Below are positions 8,284 to 52,276 of a DNA stretch of 64,000 nt, one piece after another. A program made the translations under genes and the position numbers. Source of the stretch: Methylococcales bacterium (lineage in GTDB: Bacteria; Pseudomonadota; Gammaproteobacteria; Methylococcales; Methylomonadaceae); the NCBI GenBank assembly GCA_026399095.1, contig JAPLRP010000039.1, positions 1-64,000 of the forward strand, given 5' to 3'. The first letter of the stretch is position 1; each line of letters starts with the position of its first letter. Below the pieces are notes generated by a model. That model saw only the letters and a program-made list of their open reading frames with translations. It was not told the DNA's origin and searched no databases.

Positions 8284-8449
8284 GAGGTCTTCTCGCTTAT
8301 TCATGTTTTATTTTTTTGGGACACTTTACAAAGCATCGCTATTTTGACTTCTTTAAATTGCCTGACCGTACAATCTGCATTTGCTAAATAGCTGTTAGGG
8401 TAACTTACTTTAAAGCGACCCAAACAAACTAGCAATAGTTATAAGTATC

Positions 8450-10174
8450 TTACCAGTCAACTTGCATGCGTGTTTCAAACATATCAAGCTGGGCACCATT
8501 AAATGCTTGGCCTTGTGTAGTACCAGGCTTTGAACCACCCTGTGCATAAGTCATCTGTGTCGCAGTATTAATGTCTAATGCATGGATATAGTTAGCCGAT
8601 ACCCGCAAATGTGAATGAGGAAACCAATTAATGCCGCCCTTAACCGTTGATGCCGAACCACCCAACGCACCACCAGAGTTTAAATTCATGTGATCATAAC
8701 CAGCCGCCAACTCCCAAGCGCCCCAACCACCGTTCATATCAAAGTTACGAGTGGGCTTAATACGATCCCAAGCACCGGTTTTAGCTTTATAATTACGCGA
8801 ATCATTGGTTAAAAAGTATGTCACATAGCCATAATAACCATCCAAAGCTGCATTGTTATAGCCTTTACCCGTCACATTCGTTTGTATATATTCGCCTTGC
8901 GCTGAAAACTTATTATAAACTAACGCTGACTCAGCTCCAAAACGCGTCAAATTATCAGCGACACGAGCATTTGGATTGCCTTGCGCACCTGAAGACGTTA
9001 AATTACCGGTATTTAAAATCGAACTACGATCTACGTTACCTCCTAGGCCATTTGCAAAAATAACACCACCATTACTGTAATTACCAGCAGTTGAGTAATT
9101 ATTATTAATGTTAATGAAAGACCCCGAAGCACCGACATGTAAGAATTTATTTTTGCTTTGAAACCAAGGCGTACCCGTTAAACGAGTATTAACTTCCCAA
9201 CCGGTATCACCGCCACCACCATTACGATTGACACCACCATTAGTATTAATGGCACTTCCCGTACTAGCCGTTAATGAGTTATTACCGTAAGCGTTATAAC
9301 CACCCACACCTTCAGTTTGCAAAGATGAGCCTATTTGCCAGCGATCAGTTGCATAGTTAGCACCAATACCCACTTTATAAGTGTTGAGGTTATCAACAAA
9401 GGTATTAACCGCCATGTTACGCTCAATAAATGTCGTATAACGGTTACTGGTTGCTTCTTCCAAGCTGAAGGGCTCTTTAAAAGCACCGACTTTAACTGAA
9501 AACGGGTTGGAAAAATTATATCGAATAAAGGCATCGGTAATACCACCCGCATTTAAACCATTGCCGCGTGTAAAATCGTATTCAAATTTATAATCAGTCT
9601 TTTTAAAGAACGTACCTTCAATACCTAAACGGGCACGGCGTAACGCTACACCATCATCTAAACCAGCTGGTAAAAAAACAGCTGGAGAGCCGTTAACAAC
9701 AGGGTCACAAGTTGGGCAAGATGGAACTTGAGGTATACTTTGAAACGATCCACCGTTTGGAGTTGTTAAGTTCTGATCATTAATCTGTGAATCAACCTGC
9801 ATACGTCCGTTTATACCTGCCGAGAAATTACCATCCTTGGTAGCAAAATGAATACCATCTTTAAGACTAATATGCGCTGACTCTGGACTGTTAGCTTCTG
9901 CGGCATACTCTGAAAGTGCTTTAATTTCGTTGGTTTTTAAGGCTAAATCTTCCTTAATGGCAGCTACTTCCGCTTGTGTTGCTGCGGGGACAGCCGCTTT
10001 AGCAGGTACATCATCGACTTTTTGGAATGAACCCATGAGCTCCCGACCACGACCGGGCTCTGCATAAATCTGCTTGGTTTTAGTGTCCACATAAAGTTCC
10101 ATCGCAAAGGCGCTGAATGATGCACTTGCACCTAATGTGGCGGCAATTGCCAGAGTTAATCTAGAGAATTTCAT
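8450..10174 (-). CDS. Phosphate-selective porin, OprO/OprP type
   Basis: A 574-residue outer-membrane porin. A signal peptide (MKFSRLTLAIAATLGASAS...FA) is followed by a short helical/coiled segment (QAEVAAIKEDLALKTNEIKA), a common trimerisation feature of OprO/P proteins, then a beta barrel beginning at GNFSAGINGRMQVDSQI and ending in MFETRMQVDW with the terminal aromatic residue expected for Bam recognition. Inside are the usual ALRRARLGIEGTFFKKTDYKFEYDF and family strands, and glycine/asparagine-rich loops. OprP-type porins take up phosphate or polyphosphate. Four PhoB-type repeats upstream (10223-10266) fit induction by phosphate starvation. Substrate selectivity cannot be proved from sequence. 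Confidence 0.85.
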   Translation of the reverse strand: MKFSRLTLAIAATLGASASFSAFAMELYVDTKTKQIYAEPGRGRELMGSFQKVDDVPAKAAVPAATQAEVAAIKEDLALKTNEIKALSEYAAEANSPESAHISLKDGIHFATKDGNFSAGINGRMQVDSQINDQNLTTPNGGSFQSIPQVPSCPTCDPVVNGSPAVFLPAGLDDGVALRRARLGIEGTFFKKTDYKFEYDFTRGNGLNAGGITDAFIRYNFSNPFSVKVGAFKEPFSLEEATSNRYTTFIERNMAVNTFVDNLNTYKVGIGANYATDRWQIGSSLQTEGVGGYNAYGNNSLTASTGSAINTNGGVNRNGGGGDTGWEVNTRLTGTPWFQSKNKFLHVGASGSFININNNYSTAGNYSNGGVIFANGLGGNVDRSSILNTGNLTSSGAQGNPNARVADNLTRFGAESALVYNKFSAQGEYIQTNVTGKGYNNAALDGYYGYVTYFLTNDSRNYKAKTGAWDRIKPTRNFDMNGGWGAWELAAGYDHMNLNSGGALGGSASTVKGGINWFPHSHLRVSANYIHALDINTATQMTYAQGGSKPGTTQGQAFNGAQLDMFETRMQVDW

Positions 10175-10222
10175 TTTCTGCTCTCAGTTGTTATCAAAAA
10201 ATACTGAGGCAAGGATAATAGA

Positions 10223-10266
10223 AAATAATTACAGTTATGTGACAGAAATATTACAGATATGTGACA
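10223..10266 (-). promoter_or_regulatory. Tandem Pho boxes (PhoB binding sites)
   Basis: Four contiguous 11-bp units occur on the minus strand (10266 down to 10223): TGTCACATATC, TGTAATATTTC, TGTCACATAAC, TGTAATTATTT. The 7-bp TGTMAYA-type core repeated every 11 bp is the known PhoB binding pattern, so this is two consecutive Pho boxes. They end about 50 bases upstream of the porin start, with a -10-like TATTAT (10220-10215) just downstream, as expected where PhoB replaces a -35 element. Confidence 0.75.
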
Positions 10267-10520
10267 ACAGGCAATTTAGTTGCTTCGTTACAAAAACAAA
10301 AAAACAGACCCTTTCTTACTTATTGATTTTAAAGAAAAAATAATTTCTTAATCCATTCTCTTTTTAACAACATTTATTCCAAATAACTGGCGTTTAAGCT
10401 ATTGATACTCATAAACACGGTACCCTTAAACCAAACAATAACTTTGGGCAATAAAAATAACGGCTAAAAACTAATTAGTTAAAACCATGATTGGCTTCTA
10501 TTTGATACTAAACTATTATA

Positions 10521-10543
10521 GCGCCCAATTAAAAATCGGGCGC
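10521..10543 (-). terminator. Possible terminator hairpin
   Basis: GCGCCC and GGGCGC form a 6-bp G+C stem around an A/T loop, just beyond the stop of the small lipoprotein gene at 10558. The sequence after the stem on the minus strand (TATAATAGTTT) is A+T-rich but not a clean U-tract, so the terminator is weak or factor-assisted. Confidence 0.45.
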
Positions 10544-10557
10544 CGGTCTAGCTGTTG

Positions 10558-10749
10558 TTATTTGCTTGCTGGCTCTGCAGCTGGAGCAGCAACAGGTGCT
10601 TCAACAGCTACTGGTGCCGCTACTTCTGCAGGAGCTGCTGTTGCGCTTGGCGCTGCTTCTGGAGCTTTGGCTTCTTCTGCAGGTTTTTCACAGCCAGCCA
10701 ATAATGCCAAAGTAAATAAACCTGTCGCTACAATTATTTTATTTTTCAT
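10558..10749 (-). CDS. Small Ala/Pro-rich lipoprotein
   Basis: A 63-residue precursor with a lipoprotein signal: MKNKIIVATGLFTLALLAGC, lipobox LLAGC with Cys20 as the lipidation site. The ~43-residue mature part is almost wholly Ala, Pro, Glu and Val (for example PVAVEAPVAAPAAEPASK), so it is an extended, low-complexity tether with no enzymatic domain. It is preceded by a good ribosome site (GGAAACAACT). Such proteins anchor in a membrane and reach into the periplasm; a spacer or cell-wall role is inferred. A longer plus-strand frame over the same bases is explained by the biased composition. Confidence 0.7.
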   Translation of the reverse strand: MKNKIIVATGLFTLALLAGCEKPAEEAKAPEAAPSATAAPAEVAAPVAVEAPVAAPAAEPASK

Positions 10750-11060
10750 AGTTGTTTCCTTTTATTTTATTTTAAATTTTGGTTATGCGCTCTTTACCCC
10801 GAGCATCTCAGGGTAGTAGTAATGCTACCACATTAATGATGTGTTCTTTTAATAAAACAGTTTCTATTACTGCCTCTGTTAGCTTTCTATATTCAACAAA
10901 ATATAATCAGATTTTTAGTTTTATTATTTTATATTAGAAAAGAATGCTGAAGCTATTACAATATTTATTGGTTTAATGCCGGCTGAATTAGTTACCAGTG
11001 AATTGCTTGCCGCTGTTAAATGCTATATTATAAATTCTGCTCTGTTTATCTAACTTTTCA
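10750..11060. other. Intergenic region between divergent lipoprotein and zur genes
   Basis: About 310 bp, A+T-rich, with no ORF of note. The right end carries the zur promoter and candidate Zur site (11003-11035). The left end carries the ribosome site of the lipoprotein gene. Confidence 0.4.
11003..11035 (+). promoter_or_regulatory. zur promoter with overlapping Zur-like operator
   Basis: TTGCTT (11003-11008), 17 bp, then TATTAT (11026-11031) makes a sigma-70-like promoter. The palindrome AAATGCTATATTATAA (11018-11033) overlaps the -10 and closely resembles the core of the proteobacterial Zur consensus, AAATGTTATA-N-TATAAC. This suggests that Zur represses its own gene when zinc is sufficient. 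The match is by eye. Confidence 0.5.
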
Positions 11061-11579
11061 ATGACTATCAATACGATACCCTTACAACATGCACTAAAGC
11101 ATAATCATAACGAATGTGTCAGCGAAGCTATGGCAACCGCAGAACATTTATGCATGGAGCGTGGCGTGCAATTAACGCCTATTCGCCACAAAGTACTGGA
11201 ATTGATTTGGGAAAGTCACAAGGCGGTCAAAGCTTATGAGCTTTTGGATCGACTAAAACCTCTGCAAAAAGCTGCAAAACCGGCAACTATCTATCGTGCT
11301 TTAGATTTTTTGATTGATCAGGGTTTAATTCATCGCGTTGAAAGTCTTAATGCTTTCGTTGGTTGTCGTTGCTCGAGTTATCAGCATGAACAATTATTGT
11401 TAATCTGCAAACACTGCGAAGAAGTCGAAGAGCGCTCTGCCAAGGAAGTCATGTCAGCTTTGTCGGAAGATACTCAAAAAGCGGGCTTTACCATTCATAG
11501 TAAAGCCATTGAAATTCATGGTATTTGTAAGAATTGTCAAAACTTGACTATCGATCAAAATCAATCAGTTATTTTATAA
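11061..11579 (+). CDS. zur: Zinc uptake regulator Zur (Fur family)
   Basis: A 172-residue Fur-superfamily repressor. The N-terminal winged helix contains GVQLTPIRHKVLELIWES and KPATIYRALDFLIDQGLIHR (the recognition helix). The C-terminal dimerisation domain carries the structural-zinc cysteine pairs CKHCEE and CKNC, and a regulatory His/Cys set (GCRCSSYQHE, EIHGIC). The GCRC and EIHGIC segments resemble Zur more than Fur, which has HHDH and a longer His-rich region. Zn-bound Zur represses zinc uptake genes. A Zur-like palindrome overlaps its own promoter, but no zinc transporter gene is adjacent. PerR or Fur are less likely alternatives. Confidence 0.78.
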   Translation: MTINTIPLQHALKHNHNECVSEAMATAEHLCMERGVQLTPIRHKVLELIWESHKAVKAYELLDRLKPLQKAAKPATIYRALDFLIDQGLIHRVESLNAFVGCRCSSYQHEQLLLICKHCEEVEERSAKEVMSALSEDTQKAGFTIHSKAIEIHGICKNCQNLTIDQNQSVIL

Positions 11580-11588
11580 ACAGTAATT

Positions 11589-12809
11589 TTACAGATCTAA
11601 TGCTGCAACTTTACTATCATCAGGTAACGATTGCTTAAAATAATTACGCACACCTTTGAATATAGCATTAGCTACTTTTGACTGGTACTGTTTACTCAGT
11701 AAATTTTGCTCTTCTGATGCATTAGAAATAAAAGCGGTTTCCACCAAAATAGAAGGAATATCAGGTGACTTCAACACCATAAAACCAGCTTTTTGCACGG
11801 TATCTTTGTGCAATTGTGAAATGCTGATAAAACTTCTTAATACGTGATTGGCAACATTAACACTCGCTTCTCGGGTGCCTTTTTGAGTTAGGTCAAACAA
11901 GGTTGATGCTAAATCATCTTCTTTATCATGGAGACTAACTCCAACCATATCTGAGGCATTTGCACTATCTGCCAACCAGCGAGCGGCTTCACTTGAGGCA
12001 CCCGTGGTGGATAAGGTATAAACCGATGCGCCTTTGATTTCAGTATCTTGGAAAGCATCAGCATGTATTGAAATAAATAAGTCTGCTTTAGCTGCACGAG
12101 CTATTTGCATGCGCTCTCTAAGACCAACGTAATAATCCCCTCTACGAACCATTATTGCCTTCATGCCTGACTGAGCATTGATTAATGCCTCAAGCTTTTT
12201 AGCGATGGCAAAAGTAATTACTTTCTCTTCTGTTCCCTGAAGTCCATGAGCACCTGGATCATTGCCACCATGCCCCGGATCTATAGCAATAATGCTCCTC
12301 GCAGCATGCGCTAAGCCAGTCGTTTTTTGGGTTATAGTTTTAATTTCAACTTCTGATGAATTATCATTTTCAGTTTTTTCTTGTTGTTTGTTGCTAACAA
12401 CGTCAGATACAACGATTGAATCCAAATCAACGACCAATCGATTTACATCATTATTATTTGAATTTAATGAGAATTTCTTTGCAGAAATGGGGGTTTTTAA
12501 ATCAACAACAATTCTTAAATCCGTTTTATTTCTTACTCCCGCACGTACCCGATTGAACAAAGGATGACCTTCGGAAGGTTGAGCTAAAGAACGCTCCAAG
12601 TGTGCATTGCTAATGTCTATGACCAAACGCGAAGGATTTTCCATAACGAATACACGATGTTGAGGTGATGCCGTCACATCAAAAATCAACCGGTTTTGCT
12701 TTGATGTGGTATCAAACTGCAACGATTTTACATTTATTGGTTGCGCATAAGTCGACGAAGATAATAACTGTAATCCAATGAAAAAAAAGATTTTTTCGTA
12801 ATTTCTCAT
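11589..12809 (-). CDS. amiC: N-acetylmuramoyl-L-alanine amidase, AmiC type
   Basis: A 406-residue periplasmic cell-wall hydrolase. It has a signal peptide (FFFIGLQLLSSSTYA), an AMIN domain at ~25-135 (VFVMENPSRLVIDISNAHL, TDLRIVVDLKTP) that targets the septum, a linker, and an Amidase_3 catalytic domain from ~180 with IAIDPGHGGNDPGA (first zinc His), the conserved Glu in GTEEK, ISIHADAF (second His) and VETAFISN. It cleaves the peptide stem from muramic acid during daughter-cell separation and normally needs an EnvC/NlpD-type activator. The ATG at 12809 is preferred over a TTG four codons earlier. It is downstream of tsaE, a common amiB-tsaE neighbourhood; AmiB is an alternative name. Confidence 0.87.
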   Translation of the reverse strand: MRNYEKIFFFIGLQLLSSSTYAQPINVKSLQFDTTSKQNRLIFDVTASPQHRVFVMENPSRLVIDISNAHLERSLAQPSEGHPLFNRVRAGVRNKTDLRIVVDLKTPISAKKFSLNSNNNDVNRLVVDLDSIVVSDVVSNKQQEKTENDNSSEVEIKTITQKTTGLAHAARSIIAIDPGHGGNDPGAHGLQGTEEKVITFAIAKKLEALINAQSGMKAIMVRRGDYYVGLRERMQIARAAKADLFISIHADAFQDTEIKGASVYTLSTTGASSEAARWLADSANASDMVGVSLHDKEDDLASTLFDLTQKGTREASVNVANHVLRSFISISQLHKDTVQKAGFMVLKSPDIPSILVETAFISNASEEQNLLSKQYQSKVANAIFKGVRNYFKQSLPDDSKVAALDL

Positions 12810-48267: not shown

Positions 48268-48723
48268 CTAAAGAAAATCTCTCAGTCTTTTTTTACTGAG
48301 TTCATAAGAAATAATGGCGGGGATATAAAACGTAATATCTGCGGTTACTTTTGCCAAAAAAGTGCCCCAAGGTAAGCTATTCAATAAAATTGGCAAGTAA
48401 TACATCAGAAAAGGCCGTATTAACAAAGTATCAAAAACCTCGGCAATACCAAACTCCACACCTAACGCTCTTATGTTTTTAAAGAATACATGAAACGTAT
48501 AGGTTTGCTGATTTAGTAAACAGTGTTTTCTGGTCGCTAACATATCCGTTAACAAGATACAGCCAAAGTAAGCCGTATTACCGATTACTGTCGCAACAAG
48601 CGCCGTCGTTAGTTTATTTTCAGTGTAGCCAAAAGCTAGCTCAGCAGAAACCACCGTTAAAATCATCGAGATTATTTCAGCCGGTAGATAGCGCTTAAGC
48701 CACTCATTAATTTTATGTTTCAT
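48268..48723 (-). CDS. Hypothetical membrane protein
   Basis: A 151-residue protein with three or four hydrophobic helices: EIISMILTVVSAELAFGY, ALVATVIGNTAYFGCILLTD and two near the C-terminus (PFLMYYLPILLNSLPWG, ADITFYIPAIISYEL). It has no signal sequence, lipobox or enzymatic motif. It is monocistronic on the minus strand, upstream of fhcB by about 190 bases. The family is not recognised; the design resembles small conserved inner-membrane proteins of unknown role. Confidence 0.6.
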   Translation of the reverse strand: MKHKINEWLKRYLPAEIISMILTVVSAELAFGYTENKLTTALVATVIGNTAYFGCILLTDMLATRKHCLLNQQTYTFHVFFKNIRALGVEFGIAEVFDTLLIRPFLMYYLPILLNSLPWGTFLAKVTADITFYIPAIISYELSKKRLRDFL

Positions 48724-49137
48724 TGGCGCTTAGGCATCAAACTTGATTGATCAGAACTGCTTATTATACGCGCCACTTACGCTAGCTTGGTGTTAGTACC
48801 AAGACCTCTTTTGTAAACATTTCCATAAACTTGGGATTTAATCGATCAGATAAATAAGTATAGAAAGAGCATGCAAACTGCAAACTGCAAACTGCAAACT
48901 GCAAACTGCAAACTGCAAACTGCAAACTGCAAACAAACTGCAAAATTATATTTAAAATTAAAGAATAGGATGGTATTTTAATATCGTATTAATGTTGAAG
49001 AAATATGAATACATATTCTTGAAATCTCATTGTCTGGATAGATATCCACTCATACAGACACAAGTTACTGAACTGATTCCCAGTAACTTTAGTCATTTGG
49101 CTTTGGCTGATTGAATCGATAACAAAATTAAAATTAT
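48724..49137. other. Intergenic region with 7-bp tandem array
   Basis: About 410 bp between divergent genes. It holds the nine-copy TGCAAAC array (48872-48934) and a remaining A+T-rich region to the sensor kinase start, where no strong promoter match is obvious. Confidence 0.5.
48872..48934. repeat. Nine perfect tandem copies of a 7-bp unit (TGCAAAC)
   Basis: Exactly 63 bp consist of nine uninterrupted TGCAAAC units, followed by a degenerate tail (AAACTGCAAAA). The array lies about 200 bp upstream of the hybrid histidine kinase. A 7-bp unit is not a multiple of three and the array is non-coding. Perfect short tandem repeats are prone to slippage, so copy number may vary between strains and alter promoter spacing. 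Confidence 0.9.
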
Positions 49138-51906
49138 ATGCAAGCGCTCATTGATTTATTTAGCTATAAAGACCTCATTCCTCATGGCTATTGCCTGGCG
49201 TGGAGTCCACTGCTTCTTTGGCTAACTGTCATCTCGGATCTATTAATCACACTGGCCTATTATTCCATCCCCTTCACTATTCTCTATTTCTTATATCAGC
49301 GTAAAGAATCGCACTATAATTGGATTGGCGTTTTATTTGCGACCTTTATACTCGCCTGCGGTACCACACATTTACTCTCTACCATTACCATTTGGATACC
49401 TTTATATTGGCTGGATGGTTTCCTTAAGGCTTTTACCGCTTTAATTTCAGTGGCTACCGCCTTATCGATGCTTTGGGTTGTTCCCCGCGTACTGTCTTTA
49501 CCTACTCAATCTCAATTAGAAGGAGAGATACAACAAAGACAATATGCCGAAAATAACCTACTCAATTCTAGCAATACATTCAATAAAATTGCCAGTCGAG
49601 TACCAGGAATGGTCTACCAATTTTATTTAAGCTCGGATGGTAAAGCCGCATTTCCTTTTGTGAGCGAAGGTATTTATGAGTTATTTAGAGTTAAACCGGA
49701 GGAAGTCCGCGAAGATGCTTCACAAATATTTGCCCTTATTCATCCGGAAGATTTTGATGGCTTTGTTGCATCTATCGAGATGGCCGTCAATAACTTGGCG
49801 CCTTGGTTTTATGAATTCCGAGTCAAACATAATGACGGCACTATAAACTGGCTATCAGGAAACTCACTGCCAGATCAAGACGATTTTGGAGTCTGGTACT
49901 GGTATGGCTTTATGTCAGACATTACTGTACGAAAACAGTTAGGCGAGAACTTACGTATTAGCGAAAACATAAAGCATGCGATACTGGAATCCAGTCCGGA
50001 CGCCATATTTTCGGTAGATAATGATGGTTTGATTAAAAATTATAATCCCTCAACCTTATCAATCTTTGGCTATACACATCAAGACATACACGAGAAAAAC
50101 TGGATTGATCTATTTATAGCTGAACCCTTCCGTGATAATGATCTGATTAATCATTCAAAATATACCGAAAGCTCGCAAGACAGTGTGGTAAATTCACGAA
50201 TTGAGTTAATGGGCTGTCGTGATGACGAAGAGTTTCCAATAGAAATAAGTATTACGCCAATCAGAATAGGATCGCTAAACTTTTTTTCTGTTTTTATACG
50301 AGATATCAGCGAACGCAAAAACTCAGAAGCAGTTTTGCGCGAGGGACAACAACAGGCAGAACAGGCCAATCTCGTTAAATCGCAATTTCTGGCGATGATG
50401 AGTCATGAAATACGCACCCCGCTTAATGCGGTTTTAGGGATGCAGGAGTTATTAACCAACACACCGCTTAATCATATCCAAACTGATTACATGCAAATAG
50501 CAAGCCAAGCCGGTAAAAACATGCTGGCTATTGTTAACGATATCTTGGACTTTACCAAAGTAGAGGCTGGCAAGCTCGAATTGGAGCAAATTCCCTTTGA
50601 TGTGATTGAGATAACGCAGAACTGTGTCGAATTAATGACGCTTACCGCCAAAGCAAAGGATTTGTCATTGATTACCGTTATTGTCCCGGAACTTAATGTC
50701 TGGATTAGCGGCGACCCTTTGCGCTATCACCAAGTACTCATTAATTTGCTAAGTAATGCCATCAAGTTTACCAACACCGGTAGTGTAACCATTAAACTGT
50801 CAGCCCAGCCAAACCTGGAAGATAGCTGTGTGTTATTGGTGGAAGTGATCGATACTGGTATTGGTATTCCTTTAACTTCTCAAGCCGGCTTGTTCGAAAT
50901 CTTTGTTCAGGTCGATCCTTCGGATAGCCGTAAATACGGCGGCAGTGGTTTGGGACTGGCCATTTCCAAACGATTAGTGATGTTATGGGAGGGCCATATT
51001 GGCGTAGAAAGTACGCCGAATATCGGCAGTCGCTTTTGGTTTACGGTAGGATCAAAGGCAACTGCGCTTGCTCAGGAAATAACGCCTACTTTTCTACCGG
51101 CTGATGAAAGTACGTCAAGTCCTATTGTTGCCAACATCTTAGTCGTTGATGATAGCGCGATTAACCAAGCGGTACTGACCTACATGTTGCGCGACGCCGG
51201 CCATCACGTTGATCTTGCAAATTCCGGGAACCTAGGCATAGCCGCAGTAAAGAAAAAGAACTATGACATTATTTTAATGGATGTATCCATGCCGGATATG
51301 AGTGGCATGGAGGCCACGACAATCATTCGTCAATTGGGCGGTGCGGCAGCATTGGTCCCCATCATTGCGATAACTGCTCATGCCTTGGCCGGCTATCAGG
51401 CGTTATGTTTGGCGGCTGGCATGAACGGCTATGCGACCAAACCGATTAGTCAGAAAGACTTGCTGGCTGTCGTGGCGACTTGGTGTGACAAAACAATAAC
51501 TCGTGATGCTCCCGCCTTAAGCGCTTTAATTGAGGACAGTTCTGTTCAGTCAGTTTACGAACCAGTCAAGCAAGCGGTAATATTGGATCAAGCCGCGCTT
51601 GATGCGCTCACTAGCCTACTTGGTCAGGAGGCGTTTAATGATTTATTGCAAATCTATCTCACAGAACTCAATACGCGCTGTGATGCCATCAAGCAAGCGA
51701 TTATTCAGCAGGATTTAGTCATCATCTGCCGAGAAGCTCATGCCATCAAAGGCAGTTCAGCAAGTTTTGGCGCGACAGCATTAAATGCAATCGCTAAAGA
51801 CTTAGAAGTCTGTGGTTATAACGATGATTTACCTCAAGCCTTGATTTTGGCAGAGCAATTATTGCCCTGTGCAGCAGCCACCTTGGCGGCTATGTCCAGT
51901 ATCTAA
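49138..51906 (+). CDS. Hybrid histidine kinase with ethylene-receptor-like membrane domain
   Basis: A 922-residue sensor. The first ~115 residues form a three-helix membrane domain like the ethylene-binding domain of plant ETR1: Asp34, Tyr41, Pro45, Ile71, Cys74 and His78 all match ETR1 residues with the same offset (ISDLLITLAYYSIP; FILACGTTHL). Cys and His bind copper in ETR1. Then come two PAS domains (~150-265, ~275-395), a HisKA domain with His423 (MMSHEIRTPLNAVLG), HATPase (DTGIGIPL, GGSGLGLAISKR), a receiver with Asp715 (IILMDVSMPDMSG) and a C-terminal HPt with His868 (REAHAIKGSSASFG). It could pass phosphate to an unlinked regulator. Ethylene as ligand is inferred from the copper-site residues only. 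Confidence 0.9.
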   Translation: MQALIDLFSYKDLIPHGYCLAWSPLLLWLTVISDLLITLAYYSIPFTILYFLYQRKESHYNWIGVLFATFILACGTTHLLSTITIWIPLYWLDGFLKAFTALISVATALSMLWVVPRVLSLPTQSQLEGEIQQRQYAENNLLNSSNTFNKIASRVPGMVYQFYLSSDGKAAFPFVSEGIYELFRVKPEEVREDASQIFALIHPEDFDGFVASIEMAVNNLAPWFYEFRVKHNDGTINWLSGNSLPDQDDFGVWYWYGFMSDITVRKQLGENLRISENIKHAILESSPDAIFSVDNDGLIKNYNPSTLSIFGYTHQDIHEKNWIDLFIAEPFRDNDLINHSKYTESSQDSVVNSRIELMGCRDDEEFPIEISITPIRIGSLNFFSVFIRDISERKNSEAVLREGQQQAEQANLVKSQFLAMMSHEIRTPLNAVLGMQELLTNTPLNHIQTDYMQIASQAGKNMLAIVNDILDFTKVEAGKLELEQIPFDVIEITQNCVELMTLTAKAKDLSLITVIVPELNVWISGDPLRYHQVLINLLSNAIKFTNTGSVTIKLSAQPNLEDSCVLLVEVIDTGIGIPLTSQAGLFEIFVQVDPSDSRKYGGSGLGLAISKRLVMLWEGHIGVESTPNIGSRFWFTVGSKATALAQEITPTFLPADESTSSPIVANILVVDDSAINQAVLTYMLRDAGHHVDLANSGNLGIAAVKKKNYDIILMDVSMPDMSGMEATTIIRQLGGAAALVPIIAITAHALAGYQALCLAAGMNGYATKPISQKDLLAVVATWCDKTITRDAPALSALIEDSSVQSVYEPVKQAVILDQAALDALTSLLGQEAFNDLLQIYLTELNTRCDAIKQAIIQQDLVIICREAHAIKGSSASFGATALNAIAKDLEVCGYNDDLPQALILAEQLLPCAAATLAAMSSI

Positions 51907-51910
51907 ACAT

Positions 51911-52276
51911 CTATAACCCAAACTCGTATAGTAGCTTGATTGAAACATAAATAACCAAGCCCATTGCAAAGATATACGTGCAATAAAGTACCGGCTGGGC
52001 AATAAATGCTTTTAAGAAAGTCTGCTGCAAGCCCTCTTGTTTTAATTGCTTATACGTCTCACGCGAACTGATAGCTCGCTGTTGTTGATAAGCATTTATC
52101 AACGCTCTGGCCTTTTCAACATCATCAGCCTGTCTAAGCCATATCCCGGGCATAGACATCCCCCAATTACCGGCCGTCGTTTCATAAAAATCAATCACTT
52201 GTTCAGTCAGTAGCTCGCGTACCTCATCGGCTTCATCTTCTGGCACACCGCGTAAAGGAAATAATAATAAACTCAT
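51911..52276 (-). CDS. DUF6164-like small membrane protein
   Basis: A 121-residue protein. The N-terminal half is a soluble ferredoxin-like fold (LLLFPLRGVPEDEADEVREL, DFYETTAGNWGMSMPGIWL), and the C-terminus has one membrane helix (PVLYCTYIFAMGLVIYVSIK). The first segment is typical of a family I know as DUF6164, found beside varied genes in Proteobacteria, role unknown. It converges on the hybrid kinase gene with a four-base gap and no terminator between. Function is open. Confidence 0.65.
   Translation of the reverse strand: MSLLLFPLRGVPEDEADEVRELLTEQVIDFYETTAGNWGMSMPGIWLRQADDVEKARALINAYQQQRAISSRETYKQLKQEGLQQTFLKAFIAQPVLYCTYIFAMGLVIYVSIKLLYEFGL

Follow-up and report, generated by a model that had tools for sequence, protein, structure and literature searches.

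What a methane-oxidizing bacterium might sense with a membrane domain of the ethylene-receptor type is the question raised by one gene in the 64,000-nucleotide stretch of Methylococcales DNA analyzed here (the window). This gene (49138..51906, + strand; ORF and Pfam evidence) encodes a hybrid histidine kinase of 922 aa with such a domain at its N-terminus. The host had been described as a methane oxidizer in the original prediction, and a PF02461 (pmoA/AMO) match in the same genome (G000:C12), on a contig other than that of the receptor gene, supports this description.

Domain organization of the hybrid kinase

The coordinates of the open reading frame proved exact, with the ATG at 49138 being the sole ATG start ahead of the membrane domain and an in-frame stop lying just upstream. 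Pfam analysis revealed the domain order ETR1_N-PAS-PAS-HisKA-HATPase-receiver-HPt. The ETR1_N domain (aa 26-121, 49213..49500) covered the full PF25487 profile with a score of 116.4 bits, the cut-off being 27, and was followed on the same + strand by PAS domain 1 (PAS_3, 49657..49890), PAS domain 2 (PAS_9, 49996..50313), HisKA with the phosphoacceptor His423 (50377..50571), HATPase_c with the N, G1 and G2 boxes (50710..51048), the receiver domain with Asp715 (Response_reg, 51136..51474) and the HPt domain with His868 (51640..51834). Each of these six domains also scored above its Pfam cut-off, in agreement with the predicted fusion of a PAS-PAS-kinase-receiver-HPt protein to an ETR1-type domain, and a residue check found H423, D715, H868 and the N/G1/G2 boxes all intact. 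The AlphaFold model, built from 50 aligned sequences, contained three long helices (residues 24-54, 61-86 and 90-120; mean pLDDT 84), confirming the three-helix context proposed earlier, and hydropathy peaks agreed with three transmembrane helices. No relative of solved structure was found by sequence, nor by fold (best Foldseek E 0.83).

Residues of the predicted Cu(I)/ethylene site

For Arabidopsis ETR1 to bind ethylene, seven residues are required (PMC11819568, PMC6944256). Six of them (Asp25, Tyr32, Pro36, Ile62, Cys65 and His69) had been reported in the window protein at a constant offset of +9, and all six were found there as D34, Y41, P45, I71, C74 and H78. The seventh, ETR1 Ile35, had been overlooked; it corresponds to I44, which completes the set (7/7). 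The chance of seven matches at one fixed offset, given the local amino-acid composition, is about 1e-10. By residue alignment, on the + strand, Asp34 is encoded at 49237..49239, Tyr41 with Ile44-Pro45 at 49258..49272, and Ile71, Cys74 and His78, the predicted Cu(I)/ethylene site, at 49348..49371. The output residue Lys91 of ETR1, whose role is described in PMC11819568, aligned with Lys97 of the window protein and Lys98 of AzoEtr1 (49426..49428, + strand); its offset is +6, the loop ahead of helix 3 having three residues fewer. These residues, taken together with the similarity to AzoEtr1 described below, make it very probable that the window protein is a Cu(I)/ethylene receptor.

Ahead of helix 1, at aa 15-22 (49180-49203), lies a near-invariant PHGxCxxW motif common to the bacterial domains. 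It falls outside the seven known residues, and its His16 and Cys19 could aid copper loading or dimerization.

Conservation of the site was high when 49 domains of the order, including those of the window genome, were compared: the counterpart of His69 was present in 49/49, Cys65 in 47/49 and Tyr in 46/49, followed by Asp and Ile35 (45 each), Ile62 (43) and Pro (40). In a wider set including cyanobacteria and other phyla, the exact combination DYIPICH occurred in 107 of 144 rows. The site is not always kept, since two long relatives of the window protein carry substitutions, of the copper-ligand Cys by Phe in one (L058, genome G027) and of Asp25 by Gly in the other (L044, genome G028); judging from these replacements, both are possibly non-binding receptors. 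In a group of family f4 genomes Pro was replaced by Ser.

Gene neighborhood

To the left of the receptor gene lies an ORF of 151 aa with no Pfam match (48268..48723, - strand), and to the right a convergent DUF6164 gene (51911..52276, - strand; Pfam), which in congeners is found near fhcB. The neighbors scanned with Pfam comprised fhc genes (C1 oxidation), DUF6164, DUF1415, a TPR protein and a DEAD helicase. The DUF6164-fhcB interval held no receptor gene in 10/10 congeners, the two genes being near neighbors in 9/10, and in congener G026 the 151-aa ORF and DUF6164 lie side by side, uninterrupted by a receptor gene. Since the flanking genes lie together in congeners, the position of the receptor gene reflects a local insertion, and the neighborhood was rejected as a clue to function. 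The same gap in congener G031 (L231 = G031:C3:82000-98000, 8365-12426) contains a Crp-like regulator and an IS630-like transposase, both named by eye, and is perhaps an insertion hot spot.

A gene inserted in this way might be a decaying paralogue, that is, a generic kinase whose membrane domain is past ligand binding, and the relatives that have lost the copper ligand or the Asp are in line with such a fate. The window copy, however, retains 8/8 functional residues together with every phosphotransfer residue, so decay is very unlikely.

The Pfam scan, limited to neighbors, detected no conserved operon partner, no cognate response regulator among the immediate ones and no copper or pmo gene among those covered. 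The latter result bears on the suggestion that the domain is a copper sensor reporting the Cu(I) supply that governs methane monooxygenase expression. Methanotrophs depend on copper, which lends the idea some appeal. The same Cys/His site does bind Cu(I) in ETR1, but in ETR1-type domains Cu(I) is a cofactor for the gas (PMC11819568, PMC10968091), tightly held in the characterized family, and the residues needed for ethylene are kept in the window domain as well. With no copper gene beside it either, copper sensing as such, one of the two ligands originally proposed, was not upheld; of the ligand ideas it has the least support and is quite unlikely.

A perfect 9-copy TGCAAAC array (48872..48934, + strand) precedes the receptor gene by about 200 bases; variation in its copy number could affect transcription. 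A promoter scan of the gene region gave no more matches than shuffled sequences.

Distribution of ETR1_N in methanotrophs

ETR1_N matches above the cut-off were obtained in 125 of 234 species of the window's order (completeness >= 90%). When the class was sampled evenly, they occurred in 11/276 genomes, three of which belong to the order, leaving 8/273 elsewhere in the class; the figure for a phylum sample was 31/397, two of these again being in the order. The order-level matches listed all fell in two families, f1 and f4, and none was found among the genomes checked of the pmoA-positive families f6, f7 and f8. Outside the order, 28 genomes bearing ETR1_N were checked for pmoA/AMO and none had it (0/28), indicating that this background does not consist of hidden methanotrophs.

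A second comparison was made in an alphaproteobacterial family, chosen as the family of a pmoA/AMO-positive genome and comprising 199 genomes, 26 of them pmoA/AMO-positive. From their family and AMO, these positives are inferred to be Methylocystis/Methylosinus-type methanotrophs. ETR1_N was present in 18/26 positive and 23/173 negative genomes (Fisher p 7e-9, in a test that, like all the frequency tests used here, treats species as independent and ignores kinship and shared ancestry). Counted by genus, it occurred in 3/3 positive and 11/38 negative genera (p = 0.03). Genome size was not supported as the cause of this enrichment, the positives being no larger than the negative carriers of ETR1_N (median 4.1 Mb against 5.1 Mb). 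Weak matches in this family amounted to a handful from one genus (g593), and one that was inspected lacked the residues (DCAAGLQ), suggesting that counts based on Pfam only overstate real receptors among the non-methanotrophs. Such sensors are thus unusually common in methane-eaters, and the proposed link to methane oxidation finds support from frequency data in two bacterial classes.

These frequencies have to be set against a different explanation, in which methanotrophs carry the ethylene receptor because of where they live, using it to find plants or wetland sediment that is anoxic and rich in ethylene, and methane monooxygenase has no particular part in this. Plant association and the formation of biofilms are the settings in which known bacterial receptors operate (PMC11819568), and close relatives occur in sediment proteobacteria that are not methanotrophs, e.g. 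Gallionella and Sulfuritalea. Yet within the alphaproteobacterial family the pmoA/AMO-positive genomes carry ETR1_N five times as often as the others, even though they are smaller than the negative carriers. Habitat is a serious rival, which we consider possible rather than probable, and it may coexist with the sensing of ethylene as a hazard.

A second ETR1_N protein of the window genome (G000:C63:30484-30771; L050:8410-11604) is a PAS-PAS-GGDEF-EAL fusion, possibly an ethylene input to cyclic-di-GMP turnover. In the cultured Methylobacter tundripaludum SV96 four ETR1_N domains were found (L095, L104 twice, L109), the two L104 proteins standing in tandem at 1968 and 5907.

Descent and outputs of the domain

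In a tree of 121 columns, many forks of which are open, the window domain paired with that of a congener (99/90) inside a clade of 24 rows, all from gammaproteobacterial methanotrophs (96/84). It thus grouped with other ETR1_N domains when checked against the possibility of kinship with unrelated MASE-type domains. Ten domains of alphaproteobacterial methanotrophs formed a clade of their own (100/99) beside other Alphaproteobacteria. As the alphaproteobacterial domains fall mainly in separate clades, methanotrophs gained the domain more than once. Arabidopsis ETR1, on a long branch, took no firm position in the tree, which therefore does not bear on a plant origin.

Two alphaproteobacterial methanotrophs also encode proteins of 174-204 aa that consist of ETR1_N only, with Pro36 replaced by Ser (L189:4239-4850 and L193:3709-4230). 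These grouped with two family f4 domains of the window's order (L021 and L039; 100/99), which suggests, on the evidence of the tree, transfer between the methanotroph classes.

Among 49 proteins of gammaproteobacterial methanotrophs, HisKA/HATPase was found in 37, receiver in 13, GGDEF in 12, EAL in 11 and HPt in 7, and in the proteins of the alphaproteobacterial family HATPase was found in 15/15 and receiver in 11/15. ETR1_N is an input module coupled to several outputs.

Proposed function

The best explanation, and in our judgment a probable one, is that the window gene encodes an ETR1-type ethylene receptor which signals through a phosphorelay and whose presence has a rationale in methanotrophy. 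In the mechanism proposed, Cys74 and His78 of the three-helix membrane domain would serve as ligands of Cu(I), Asp34 would keep His78 in position, and ethylene, perhaps along with other small unsaturated gases, would bind the copper within the membrane. Binding would alter autophosphorylation at His423 via the two PAS domains, and phosphate would pass from His423 to Asp715, then to His868, and on to a response regulator encoded elsewhere. The output may tune biofilm, metabolism or an epoxide stress response.

Ethylene is co-oxidized by methane monooxygenase to epoxyethane and growth is inhibited; an epoxide detoxification cluster is present in about 9% of methanotroph genomes (PMC11507031). 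Because the enzyme unavoidably makes this toxic product from ethylene, we infer that sensing the gas would be of special value to a methanotroph, and a role as ethylene-hazard sensor is plausible. The word "receptor" is absent from PMC11507031, and no paper on an ethylene receptor of methanotrophs was found in a literature search whose reach mostly excluded subscription papers.

A wider proposal, put forward tentatively and with less than even confidence, is that Cu(I) ethylene receptors of the plant type were acquired repeatedly, in two or more classes of methanotrophs, to give early warning of ethylene, the gas from which their own methane monooxygenase makes toxic epoxyethane, and that ethylene directly controls the behavior of methane oxidizers in wetlands. 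At the concentrations found in soil, ethylene inhibits methane oxidation, an effect ascribed to epoxyethane poisoning (PMC11507031). If the receptor is carried by half of the methanotroph species in the Gammaproteobacteria and by most of those sampled in the Alphaproteobacteria, this inhibition could in part be a regulated response, an idea testable in culturable strains such as M. tundripaludum SV96; if true, a plant-hormone input would be added to a major methane sink. What may surprise specialists, and can be tested directly, is how often the methanotrophs of both classes carry the receptor.

Comparison with known ethylene receptors

AzoEtr1 of Azospirillum brasilense Sp7 was located through a search of plasmids as an ORF of 525 aa (L236:2989-4566) with D35, C75, H79 and K98, in agreement with the published protein and followed by the gene of a receiver protein. 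The window domain shares with it 48% identity (64/132 aligned positions) and 8/8 functional residues. AzoEtr1(1-130) made in yeast showed saturable ethylene binding (PMC11819568), and because of this close match to a yeast-tested binder the window domain is likely to bind ethylene too. Both proteins have the seven residues plus the Lys, PHGxC before helix 1, and PAS followed by a histidine kinase. In contrast to the window protein, AzoEtr1 has one PAS domain and neither receiver nor HPt, its response regulator gene lies just downstream, and its host is a plant-associated heterotroph.

Cu(I) olefin sites lack strict selectivity, and seven residues are no proof of the identity of a ligand; the site might instead sense a different small pi-ligand that methanotrophs produce or encounter, such as CO, acetylene, propylene or other alkenes. 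That ethylene is bound by AzoEtr1, which has the same residue set (PMC11819568), argues against this reading, and we regard it as rather unlikely.

SynEtr1 of Synechocystis PCC 6803 resembles the window protein in joining a bacterial domain of the ethylene-binding type to a histidine kinase. It signals onward through a response regulator and differs in being bifunctional with light sensing (PMC11819568). The sampled cyanobacterial ETR1_N domains formed their own clade (99/93), apart from the window domain. Arabidopsis ETR1 likewise combines a three-helix Cu(I)/ethylene domain bearing the seven required residues with a histidine kinase and a receiver, and the two domains are 34% identical (for a plant sequence that agrees with the published residue numbers). 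The plant protein has GAF where the window protein has PAS, lacks HPt and, being located in the ER, signals via CTR1. The window protein is confirmed, at the level of sequence, as an intact member of the known ETR1-type receptor family, its own novelty being modest.
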